NCBI RefSeq assembly: GCF_027000115.1
Contig: NZ_JALTON010000040.1
Span: forward strand, 62,001 to 126,000
Length of the DNA stretch: 64,000 nucleotides
Origin: Thiohalobacter sp.
GTDB taxonomy: Bacteria > Pseudomonadota > Gammaproteobacteria > Thiohalobacterales > Thiohalobacteraceae
Direction of reading: 5' to 3'
Positions 45,599-48,855 of the stretch are shown piece by piece. A model generated the notes under the pieces. That model saw only the letters and a list, made by a program, of their open reading frames with translations. It searched no databases and had not been told where the DNA came from. The translations under genes and the position numbers were made by a program. Each line of letters starts with the position of its first letter. The stretch's first letter is position 1.

Positions 45599-45630
45599 GG
45601 AAAAGAAGGGCGGGGCGCCAGGCGCCCCGC
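45599..45630 (-). terminator. Rho-independent terminator of the DUF5666 gene
   Basis: GCGGGGCG and CGCCCCGC form an 8-bp stem with a 5-base loop (45610-45630). On the minus strand it is followed by CCTTCTTTTCC. It lies 28 bp after the DUF5666 stop codon. Confidence 0.7.
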
Positions 45631-45657
45631 AATGCCAAGGGAGGGGATTGACGGGCA

Positions 45658-47100
45658 CTAGTTCTCGAACTCGACTTCCTCGGCGGTGCCGTCATTGTTG
45701 CTGTCCTTGATCTTCACCAGGTCGCCGGTCGATGCGCTGGAGAAGAAGGTGCCCGAGGTGATGCCGTTGTCATTGGCATCCTCGAAGCTGGCACCGCTGG
45801 TGTCGAAGGTCACGCCGAGCAGGGTCACGTTCGGACTGGCCACACTGTCGAGGCTGGCCTGCAGAATGGTAGCGCTTGCGCTGTCGCGCTTGAGCTTGTC
45901 GGCGACCACATTGCCCGAACCATCCAGGTGCGCCTCGATCTCCAGGAAGTCGCCGCTGGAGATGTCCGCCAGGGTGAAGGGCTCCCGATTGAGCACCTCG
46001 TCTTCCATCCGCGTCTGGCTGTTGGTGAGCACGGTCACCGAGCCCGTGCCCACGGTGAGCGTGACGGTGCCGGCCGTGGTGTCGACACTGGCGACGGGGG
46101 CCTCGATCTCGATGTTGCCGCCGCGGGCCTCGATCTCGGTGGCGGTCAGTACACCGTTGCTGACGGTGCCTTCCACTTCGATTTCAATGCCGTCGCCCAG
46201 TACCAGGGTGGCCGGTTCGAAGCGGGCCGCGCTGGCATCGACCGTCATCATGCCCAACTGGAAGTTCGCGTCGCTGACGTAATTGCGCACGATGCCCTCA
46301 AGGCTGACCTTGCCGGCATCATCGTCGAGGTCCTCGGACTCGATGCGGGTCGCGGTCAGGGTCGTGGCACCGGCGGAGGCCAGGGTGCCCTTGACTTCCA
46401 CGTACTGGCCGTTGGCAAGCGTGCCGCCGTTCACCTCGCTGGTGTCCGGGCTGCCGGAGATGTCGACTGTCAGCGTTGCGCCACTGGCCATCTGCAGGAT
46501 GAAGCTGCTGGCGCCCAGCCCGGTGACGGTGCCCTTGGCCTCGACCTCGGTGCTGTTGGCCGCAAAGGCGCCGGTCTTTTTCTCGATGTAGGTGGCCTGT
46601 AGCTGACCGTTGGCATCGAAGAAGCCGCTGACCTCGACCATGTCATTGCCGGCCAGCGTCGCGTAGCTGGTGTTTTCGTACACGGTGGTGCTGGCACTGG
46701 CGACCACGGTGGTGCCGAGCAGGCTGAAGGTCTTCGCCGACTGGTCGGCATTCTCGGTCGGCGCGCCGTTTATGGGGCCTTCGAGTTCGGCATCGAAACT
46801 CACCCGGGTGGCAGTGCCGGTGGTGCCGTTAGCGTCGATGGTGCCCTCGATGCGCACCACCATGCCCACCCGGAGGTCGCTTTCCGAGCCACTGGCATCG
46901 TCGACCTCGAAGCTGGTCGAGGTGGTCTCGTACTCGACACCGTTGACGAAGATGGAGCCGAAACCGGTGATGGTGCCGACGGTGGTGACGCCGGTGCCGC
47001 CGATGCCGGACAAGCTGCTGCCACCGCCCCCGCTACAGGCGGCCAGGCTGGCGACCAGGGCGGCGATCGAGATCGTTGCGGCAATACGAGGGTAGTTCAT
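45658..47100 (-). CDS. DUF5666 repeat lipoprotein
   Basis: A 480-residue exported lipoprotein. The signal ends in a lipobox (ISIAALVASLAAC, Cys about 23) followed by a Gly/Ser linker. The rest is a tandem array of beta-rich DUF5666 units, each built like GxVxGxxSIxVNGxxYETxx or DLRVGMVVRIEGTID, with recurring EVEGTV, EVKGTL and DFLEIEAHL elements. It is acidic and rich in Thr, Ser and Val, unlike the Arg-rich neighbours, as expected for a surface protein. The ATG at 47100 follows AAGGAGA and is 1 bp after the DUF6502 stop, so the two are coupled. The family's function is unknown; surface binding or adhesion is a guess. Confidence 0.88.
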   Translation of the reverse strand: MNYPRIAATISIAALVASLAACSGGGGSSLSGIGGTGVTTVGTITGFGSIFVNGVEYETTSTSFEVDDASGSESDLRVGMVVRIEGTIDANGTTGTATRVSFDAELEGPINGAPTENADQSAKTFSLLGTTVVASASTTVYENTSYATLAGNDMVEVSGFFDANGQLQATYIEKKTGAFAANSTEVEAKGTVTGLGASSFILQMASGATLTVDISGSPDTSEVNGGTLANGQYVEVKGTLASAGATTLTATRIESEDLDDDAGKVSLEGIVRNYVSDANFQLGMMTVDASAARFEPATLVLGDGIEIEVEGTVSNGVLTATEIEARGGNIEIEAPVASVDTTAGTVTLTVGTGSVTVLTNSQTRMEDEVLNREPFTLADISSGDFLEIEAHLDGSGNVVADKLKRDSASATILQASLDSVASPNVTLLGVTFDTSGASFEDANDNGITSGTFFSSASTGDLVKIKDSNNDGTAEEVEFEN

Positions 47101-47101
47101 G

Positions 47102-47935
47102 TCAGTCTCCTTGGATCTGGGAGTCAAGCTGTTCGTGGTAATAGATGCCGAGGCTCACGTAGCGCGGCGCGTCTTCGGGCGCGCCGGCCCCGGCGCTCTC
47201 GGGTGATTCGTGACGGGCCAGCCAGGCGTCCAGTTCTTCCAGCAGGGCCTGGGCGCGCTCCGCCGACAGGGCGCGGAACGCGCGCAGGGCGCCGGCGCGC
47301 ACGCGGTTGTTGGACACCTTGCGCTGGAACCAGAGGTCGTCGGGCGGGCGGGTCAGGTTGTGGCCGATGGTGCCGATCAGCTCGGCCGTGTCCGTGCCCA
47401 GGATGCGGATCTTGTCCACCGGGTCACGGGAAGGCACGTAGGCATGGCGGACCAGATGCGCGCGGCCATCATCCACGCGCACCGACTCTGCGGCTTCGAG
47501 CACGGCCAGCATGGCGCGCGGCGGGATGTCGCCGCTGTAGCGTTTGACCAGGGTTGCGAAGGTGCTGCCTTCGCCTTCCAGCGGGAGGGGAGCGGGCTGG
47601 CCGTCCGGGGCAAGGAACTCGCTGTCGTTGAGCCAGCCGGAGATCACCCGCACGGCACGGTGGTAGCGCTGCATGCCCTCGCCGTCGGCCGGGTCGTCGA
47701 GTTCCAGCAGGCGTTTCGCCTCCTTGCGGGTGAGTCCTGTCAGTGCGGACACCCGCGAGACGCTCGGCTTGCGGCCGGGCTCGGCGAACTCCTGCCAGGC
47801 GATGTCGGCATAGGTCTTCTTCGCCAGTTCCGCGAAGGCGCCCCAGGCCACGCCGTTGCGGAGCAGGATGCGGACCAGGGGCCGCAGCAGGGTCATGACC
47901 GCGGCGTTGAGTGTGCTGTTGAATGCGTTGTCCAT
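47102..47935 (-). CDS. DUF6502 family protein, putative DNA-binding regulator
   Basis: A 277-residue cytoplasmic protein of the DUF6502 family. Residues 58-78 (SVSRVSALTGLTRKEAKRLL) read as a helix-turn-helix, and the N-terminal half (LRPLVRILLRNGVAWGAFAE) is the conserved family start. The C-terminal half is helical and charged, without catalytic motifs. The start codon is placed almost directly at the predicted transcription start, overlapping a perfect palindrome, which suggests a leaderless mRNA and self-regulation. The DUF5666 lipoprotein gene follows 1 bp later. A regulator of that lipoprotein is the simplest reading. Confidence 0.85.
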   Translation of the reverse strand: MDNAFNSTLNAAVMTLLRPLVRILLRNGVAWGAFAELAKKTYADIAWQEFAEPGRKPSVSRVSALTGLTRKEAKRLLELDDPADGEGMQRYHRAVRVISGWLNDSEFLAPDGQPAPLPLEGEGSTFATLVKRYSGDIPPRAMLAVLEAAESVRVDDGRAHLVRHAYVPSRDPVDKIRILGTDTAELIGTIGHNLTRPPDDLWFQRKVSNNRVRAGALRAFRALSAERAQALLEELDAWLARHESPESAGAGAPEDAPRYVSLGIYYHEQLDSQIQGD

Positions 47936-47936
47936 G

Positions 47937-47970
47937 TTTGGGAATATAATCCCAAATCATGATCCGTCAA
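47937..47970 (-). promoter_or_regulatory. Consensus promoter with palindromic operator, leaderless start of the DUF6502 gene
   Basis: Reading toward the gene, TTGACG (47965-47970) is 16 bp before TATATT (47944-47949). The -10 lies inside a palindrome, TTTGGGA-N6-TCCCAAA (47937-47956). The ATG begins 7-8 bases after the -10, exactly where transcription should start, leaving no room for a ribosome site. Confidence 0.7.
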
Positions 47971-48186: not shown

Positions 48187-48855
48187 ATGAAGATCCCCCT
48201 GCGCGAACGCAAGGCCGCCCGCACTCGCCTGCGCCTCGCGGAAATCCTGCGCCAGCGACTGGAGCAGATGCCCTTCGAGGCGCTGGCGGTGCGCGACCTC
48301 TGCCAAGCCGCCGAGATCGCCGAGGCCACCTTCTTCAACTACTTCCCCCGCAAGCAGGACCTGCTGGCCTATGCCGGGCGCCTGCTGGCCCTGGATCTCA
48401 ACTGGGGTGTCACCCGTGCCGCCGAGACCTCGCCGGGGCTGGCCGCGATCCAGGGCCTGTTCGAACAGGCCGCGCGGGAGGCCGCCGCCGCACCGGGTTT
48501 CGTGGGCGAGCTGATCGCGTATCAGGCGCGCCTGCGGGAACGCCCCGATCCCGAGCCGCTGCCGCGTGCCGACCGGCTGCTGGCCTTTCCCGATCGCCCC
48601 GGTATCGATGCACTGGAGGACGCGGGCATCGACGCCCTGATCGCCCGCGAACTCCGGCACGCAGTCGATCGGGGTGAGCTGCCGCCGAATGCCCATCTGC
48701 CGACCCTGGTGGTGGGCCTGGTCGCGCTGTTCAACGGCGTCATCATCGCGCTGCGGCTGGTGAATCCGCAGGGCATCGCGGCCATGTACCGCCAGCAGCT
48801 CGCGCTGTTCCGGGCCGGGGCGCGCGCCGCCAGCCAGCGTCCACTGCAGTCCTGA
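48187..48855 (+). CDS. TetR/AcrR family transcriptional regulator
   Basis: A 222-residue one-component regulator. The N-terminal DNA-binding domain is clear (ERKAARTRLRLAEILRQRLE, then VRDLCQAAEIAEATFFNYFP and RKQDLLAYAGRLL). The C-terminal ligand domain is divergent, so the inducer is unknown. It stands alone, divergent from the DUF6502 gene across a 251-bp region that is AT-rich in part, and upstream of nnrS. It could control itself, the DUF6502-DUF5666 pair, or nnrS. No clear TetR operator palindrome was identified. Confidence 0.9.
   Translation: MKIPLRERKAARTRLRLAEILRQRLEQMPFEALAVRDLCQAAEIAEATFFNYFPRKQDLLAYAGRLLALDLNWGVTRAAETSPGLAAIQGLFEQAAREAAAAPGFVGELIAYQARLRERPDPEPLPRADRLLAFPDRPGIDALEDAGIDALIARELRHAVDRGELPPNAHLPTLVVGLVALFNGVIIALRLVNPQGIAAMYRQQLALFRAGARAASQRPLQS

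Follow-up and report, generated by a model that had tools for sequence, protein, structure and literature searches.

Leaderless autoregulated repressors are known, for example the lambda cI message that is transcribed from PRM, and short peptides act on HetR, the cyanobacterial heterocyst regulator involved in cell patterning. HetR requires the site GGGN5CCC, and the PatS hexapeptide on the hood domain releases it from DNA (PMC4649674). PatX, which likewise inhibits HetR, is an exported protein from which HRGTGR is cut (PMC12756182). Here, a two-gene operon encoding a DUF6502 regulator and a DUF5666 lipoprotein was compared with these systems. The operon is located in a stretch of 64,000 nucleotides from Thiohalobacter sp., referred to as the window, and had been described in an earlier note as a self-regulated unit with a leaderless first gene. 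That interpretation as a whole was partly supported, and the present analysis extends it by a signature peptide of the partner protein, a wider DUF5666 regulon and a predicted HetR-like fold. Neither DUF6502 nor, in such a setting, GIGGTG was the subject of any paper returned by the literature search, which left most subscription papers outside.

Sequences and comparison set

The search for relatives with the protein of the window alone returned none; the comparison set was obtained by family searches and comprised 119 usable DUF6502 gene neighbourhoods. The homologues are phylogenetically related, although many families and two classes are represented among the loci. Of 369 sampled genomes of the class, 97 contain DUF6502 above the family cut-off and 98 at E 0.001; within the order, it is present in 7 of 11 genomes. 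The structure of DUF6502 was modelled with AlphaFold2 using 72 sequences (pLDDT 88.6).

Organization of the operon in the window

The promoter, the genes and the elements within them were located as follows:

47970..47965, minus strand: -35 element TTGACG (sigma70 consensus scan)
47956..47937, no strand: putative operator palindrome TTTGGGA-N6-TCCCAAA, TTTGGGATTATATTCCCAAA (0 mismatches; encloses the -10 element)
47948..47943, minus strand: -10 element TATATT (inside the operator palindrome)
47935, minus strand: A of the DUF6502 ATG and predicted transcription start, leaderless (promoter-to-ATG geometry)
47935..47102, minus strand: DUF6502 regulator gene, 277 aa (PF20112, E 1e-69)
47761..47702, minus strand: helix-turn-helix of DUF6502, residues ~59-78, SRVSALTGLTRKEAKRL (model helices 59-66 and 70-78)
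47422..47126, minus strand: predicted C-terminal hood-like domain of DUF6502, residues ~172-270 (conserved FQRKV and GIYY(F/H)E stretches; model)
47112..47107, minus strand: Shine-Dalgarno sequence AAGGAG (precedes the DUF5666 ATG by 6 nt)
47100..45658, minus strand: DUF5666 repeat lipoprotein gene, 480 aa, lipobox LAAC with Cys22 (PF18914, E 1.3e-42)
47007..46990, minus strand: codons of the hexapeptide GIGGTG, lipoprotein residues 32-37 (partner motif comparison)
45630..45610, minus strand: terminator-like hairpin, 9 G-C pairs, tail CCTTCTTTTC (just past the DUF5666 stop codon)

The near-consensus promoter, the position of its -10 element within the palindrome and the coincidence of the ATG with the expected transcription start had all been pointed out in the earlier note and were borne out. 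The two hexamers match the consensus at 10 of 12 positions across a 16-nt spacer (47970-47943) and form the sole sigma70-like site between 45000 and 48500, for which 0.2 would be expected. Since the ATG follows the -10 element by 7 nt, its A lies at about +1. The DUF6502 frame contains no start codon earlier than this ATG, and no Shine-Dalgarno sequence is present at its start. No other site with up to two mismatches to the palindrome occurs across the whole 2.65-Mb genome.

With 234.8 bits over residues 8-269 against PF20112 (curated cut-off 27), the regulator belongs to DUF6502. Both the predicted structure and the matches obtained with it back the helix-turn-helix previously assigned to the regulator, and in the alignment of homologues G67 and R70 of this element are invariant and K71 nearly so. 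As also stated before, a repeat lipoprotein gene begins 1 nt past the DUF6502 stop codon; its product reaches 144.3 bits against PF18914 in six stretches, above the curated cut-off, and belongs to DUF5666. Of the cell-surface placement suggested in the earlier note, the lipobox LAAC is the part seen in the sequence; surface exposure of the protein is possible. The hexapeptide GIGGTG lies ten residues past the lipobox Cys22. The terminator thought to close the unit was found as a hairpin just past the stop codon, but such hairpins are no more frequent in this region than in shuffled sequence. Upstream of DUF6502, a divergent TetR-like ORF is present at 48187-48855 (plus strand), with the operator about 230 bp from its ATG.

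Conservation of the operator upstream of DUF6502 genes

Palindromes of this kind are not rare alone: 0.74 would occur by chance in the window when as many as three mismatches are allowed. The significance of the palindrome comes from the comparison. The computed pattern TGGGA-N6-TCCCA was found with at most one mismatch upstream of 55 of the 119 DUF6502 genes; dinucleotide shuffles gave 0.9 such sites and the intragenic control gave 1. Among gaps from 0 to 12, gap 6 yielded 55 sites and gap 5 yielded 11, with 0-3 for any other gap length. The exact 12-base form was present in 36 of the 98 genomes with DUF6502 but in only 25 of the 271 without (p 4e-9, a value that counts genomes and not independent events because the homologues are phylogenetically related); the same pattern read backwards, used as a control, was equally frequent in both groups. 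The palindrome is missing from many homologues or lies at a more distant upstream position, to which repression by covering the -10 element does not apply.

The putative operator is thus conserved before DUF6502 genes. The earlier note had named a search for the palindrome before other DUF6502 genes as a test on which its reading could fail; the conservation observed does not refute that reading, and the self-regulation it proposed is strongly supported by the comparison. We infer that the protein binding the palindrome is very probably DUF6502, and it is likely that DUF6502 represses its own operon.

Probable leaderless start of the DUF6502 message

An in-frame ATG follows the palindrome after 1-4 nt in 32 homologues, which corresponds to 5-8 nt past the -10 element, the distance at which transcription is expected to begin. 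Among sites with at most one mismatch the ATG was never located 5-12 nt past the palindrome, and the remaining ATGs lie at 13 nt or more. Additionally, a TTGACA-like -35 element with at least 5 of 6 matches at a distance of 16-18 nt was present at 23 of the 32 leaderless-type sites versus 1 of 39 other sites. Shine-Dalgarno sequences were found at none of the 32 leaderless-type DUF6502 starts, compared with 27 of 29 partner genes of those loci. The leaderless start suggested previously is therefore strongly supported by the comparison, and the DUF6502 message is in all likelihood leaderless. The computed architecture is that of a compact, conserved leaderless gene in which operator, -10 element and start codon are contained within about 30 bp.

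DUF6502 genes without an adjacent palindrome have a Shine-Dalgarno-like site in just 9 of 73 cases, so leaderless starts, or starts without a Shine-Dalgarno sequence, may be family-wide in DUF6502.

It was also considered that a different regulator binds the palindrome, that the true start of transcription or translation lies elsewhere and that the leaderless appearance is coincidental. The additional internal ATG at residue 14 of the DUF6502 protein of the window is consistent with such a start. Across many families, however, the distance from the palindrome to the ATG is fixed at 1-4 nt and never amounts to 5-12 nt, the reading frame is closed within about 20 nt upstream of the end of the palindrome in 10 of the 32 leaderless-type homologues, and the palindrome and DUF6502 co-occur, both being single copy in the genome of the window. 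These observations make a different regulator and a different start very improbable, and control of a leaderless DUF6502 gene by its own product is the reading followed below.

A putative DUF5666 regulon

A DUF5666 gene lies immediately 3′ of DUF6502 in 80 of the 110 loci with enough sequence, and DUF5666 was found in 82 of the 98 genomes with DUF6502 compared with 11 of the 271 without (p 8e-53, again counting genomes). Some loci are ordered DUF5666-DUF6502-DUF5666, with the palindrome preceding the first gene. In eight of the loci retrieved (L130, L132, L133, L134, L139, L140, L143 and L145), a palindrome distant from DUF6502 precedes a stand-alone DUF5666 gene. Taken together with the co-occurrence, these palindromes indicate that the operator marks a DUF6502-to-DUF5666 regulon. 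In the genome of the window the sole operator site is that of DUF6502 itself. Several operator-like sites remote from DUF6502 have no clear target, and many of those with GC-rich centres resemble chance occurrences.

Operator-like palindromes were also observed before exported lipoproteins that neither belong to DUF5666 nor carry GIxGTG (L136:2497-2514, L137:2475-2492 and L138:2527-2544), and the regulon may thus extend beyond DUF5666. In two genomes from a single genus (L128:2526-2543 and L129:2519-2536) the operator is placed behind TTGACA at promoter spacing with no obvious gene within 150 bp, where a small RNA or a very short ORF is possible.

A signature peptide of the downstream partner

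The motif was first seen in downstream proteins outside DUF5666, most of which carry a sequence such as GIIGTG, GIVGTG, GIFGTG or GIEGTG. Computed as G-[ILVMF]-x-G-[TS]-G after the signal peptide, it was found in 77 of the 109 downstream proteins with a signal-like N-terminus, a count that is a lower bound because partner starts were picked by a simple score and a few are wrong (e.g. L123 and L125). By comparison, composition shuffles gave 2.9 (10 at the highest), the other signal-like ORFs of those loci 3 of 97, and windows taken more distally in the same partner proteins 2 of 478. GGETGTG, GPIGTG and similar variants explain many of the partners outside the strict motif. Its position is 3-23 residues past the Cys, near the signal peptide or lipobox. 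It occurs, in unrelated folds, on lipoproteins as well as on non-lipidated exported proteins; the carriers outside DUF5666 form nine clusters without mutual BLAST similarity, and the smallest carriers, one protein of 60 aa and three of 90 aa, have little else in common. Up to six tandem copies are present in one clade.

Partners of a divergent DUF6502 clade (L098, L096, L104, L117, L107 and L109) contain 3-6 tandem copies of the GIGGTG type with short spacers, resembling a multi-copy peptide precursor. Near the second DUF6502 gene at L103 and near that at L085, the place of the usual partner motif is taken by ORFs of short tandem peptides with GISVGD or MARTPLPR repeats.

The motif was present in the partners of all five alphaproteobacterial loci (5/5). 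In the annotated plasmid records of Azospirillum lipoferum, Methylocystis iwaonis, Pseudoroseomonas cervicalis and Rhizobium etli CFN 42 (in the latter RHE_RS27340/RHE_RS27345), DUF6502 is directly followed by a DUF5666 protein, and each of these four partners carries two G[IL]GG[TS]G copies. Rhizobium sp. BG6, from an unannotated record, has the same arrangement of DUF6502 and a two-copy DUF5666 partner. GGGA-N5-TCCC or close palindromes lie upstream in A. lipoferum, M. iwaonis and P. cervicalis.

Three other origins of the motif were considered and rejected. Since its codons vary freely, with every third position variable, it is a protein motif and not a DNA-level element. Chance occurrence in glycine-rich linkers disagrees with the composition shuffles and with glycine-rich paralogues that lack the motif. 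An origin as part of DUF5666 itself disagrees with the paralogues without it and with the carriers outside DUF5666.

The motif was absent from all 15 operator-bearing DUF5666 paralogues that are not the downstream partner, compared with its presence in 77 of the 109 partners (p 9e-8); these paralogues, encoded either upstream of DUF6502 or at other genomic positions, resemble the partners in their N-termini, which are often rich in glycine. It was also absent from the DUF5666 lipoproteins readable in genomes without DUF6502. The presence of the motif thus follows cis partnership with DUF6502, and a functional tie between the motif and DUF6502 is quite probable on this comparative evidence.

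Two further explanations bear on what this tie consists of. DUF6502 might be a leaderless autorepressor of the lipoprotein operon and GIxGTG a processing, sorting or attachment tag read by another machine. The location of the motif 3-23 residues past the Cys is a common place for sorting signals. In the single model tried, a monomer of a natural in-frame DUF6502-stop-partner fusion (L098, TGA read as G), the motif tail remained undocked, at low confidence; being that of a monomer, the model speaks neither for nor against docking. Against a tag, the operator-bearing DUF5666 lipoproteins of the same genomes, whose signal peptides and glycine-rich tethers are similar, carry the motif in 0 of 15 cases; it is found on both lipidated and non-lipidated exported proteins of unrelated folds and tracks adjacency to DUF6502, so that any other reader would have to be inherited with DUF6502. 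The tag explanation is less likely than not. Alternatively, DUF6502 might act by contact with the folded partner or sense another ligand, the motif serving the partner and the cis linkage reflecting a co-inherited fixed pair. The strong linkage of DUF5666 domains to DUF6502 would fit such contact, but partners without DUF5666 keep only the motif, down to the 60- and 90-aa proteins, and this explanation is unlikely. For the reading in which the peptide itself acts on DUF6502, a role as its direct ligand is possible, if somewhat uncertain.

A proposed feedback circuit

We propose, at slightly less than even confidence for the proposal as a whole, that DUF6502 is an autoregulator with a dedicated export-linked peptide feedback partner. 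The dimeric helix-turn-helix protein would bind TGGGA-N6-TCCCA, and as the site in the window covers the -10 element of its own promoter, binding would be expected to switch off the operon by negative autoregulation. Transcription would begin at the ATG or within one or two bases of it; with a message starting there, DUF6502 would be made without a ribosome binding site and the downstream lipoprotein with a strong one. The exported downstream protein would present G-I-x-G-T-G just past its signal peptide, and the peptide, within the unexported precursor or as a released fragment, would feed back on DUF6502. It might dock on the hood-like C-terminal domain and change DNA binding, following the logic of HetR and exported PatX. 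The regulon would consist of other DUF5666 lipoprotein genes that have the operator and lack the peptide.

The broader idea of a widespread proteobacterial HetR/PatX-like circuit, in which a leaderless, self-controlled DUF6502 reads the GIxGTG of its partner as a secretion or population signal, is tentative. If true, it would assign a role to two large DUF families, DUF6502 and DUF5666, and a module of regulator and exported peptide in single-celled Proteobacteria would bear on the origin of HetR-type circuits.

Predicted fold of DUF6502 and comparison with known systems

The best PDB matches of the DUF6502 model of the window were all HetR (Foldseek E 8e-4; VIA Z 8.3, residues 7-270). For a divergent member (~30% identical) HetR was again at Foldseek rank 1, although less clearly (E 0.018), with a VIA Z of 7.0 that was tied with short helix-turn-helix matches; the VIA Z values are near chance level and the rmsd is above 10 for both models. 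PF20112 had no match in nine Nostocales genomes, and the hhalign profile comparison with a 52-sequence HetR alignment was not significant (E 0.09, probability under 1%), so kinship with HetR is not claimed by sequence. The protein of the window matches PF20112 only and HetR matches PF03574 and PF18460 only, which places DUF6502 outside the HetR sequence profiles. It is the predicted fold only that suggests kinship, and DUF6502 is not classified as HetR. In the sole alignment obtained, the register of which is uncertain, the strand matching the acidic PatS-binding hood of HetR (Glu253, Glu254, Asp256, Asp270, Asp278) reads basic FQRKV.

With the lambda cI type the DUF6502 gene shares a regulator message starting at AUG and an operator overlapping the promoter; unlike cI, the DUF6502 case is based on comparison, and it involves an exported partner in cis that bears a signature peptide. 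The partner in the window resembles PF18914 lipoproteins in its six DUF5666 stretches and differs in its signature peptide, which lies outside the DUF5666 domain and which paralogues not beside DUF6502 lack. The likeness to HetR concerns the modelled C-terminal domain, whose order of helix, FQRKV, helix and GIYYFE resembles the alpha-beta-alpha-beta hood, autoregulation, which is predicted for DUF6502, and a palindromic GGG...CCC site, which is a putative binding site for DUF6502, the G triplets of the DUF6502 operator lying ~4-6 bp from the dyad, about the distance in HetR by our own count. In contrast to the GGG-N5-CCC of HetR, the spacing of the DUF6502 site is N6 (GGG-N8-CCC) or N5; HetR activates, whereas the DUF6502 operator overlaps the -10 element, so that repression is predicted; and DUF6502 is found in single-celled Proteobacteria. 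As with PatX (HRGTGR), the partner is exported and carries a short x-G-[ST]-G peptide. The RG[ST]GR pentapeptide of PatX and PatS is not found in the partner, however, as G[ILVMF]xG[TS]G shares G[ST]G only and has no arginines, and it is located close to the N-terminus of exported proteins that are large or varied, in up to six tandem copies. By analogy, and with moderate confidence, DUF6502 may work like HetR/PatX.
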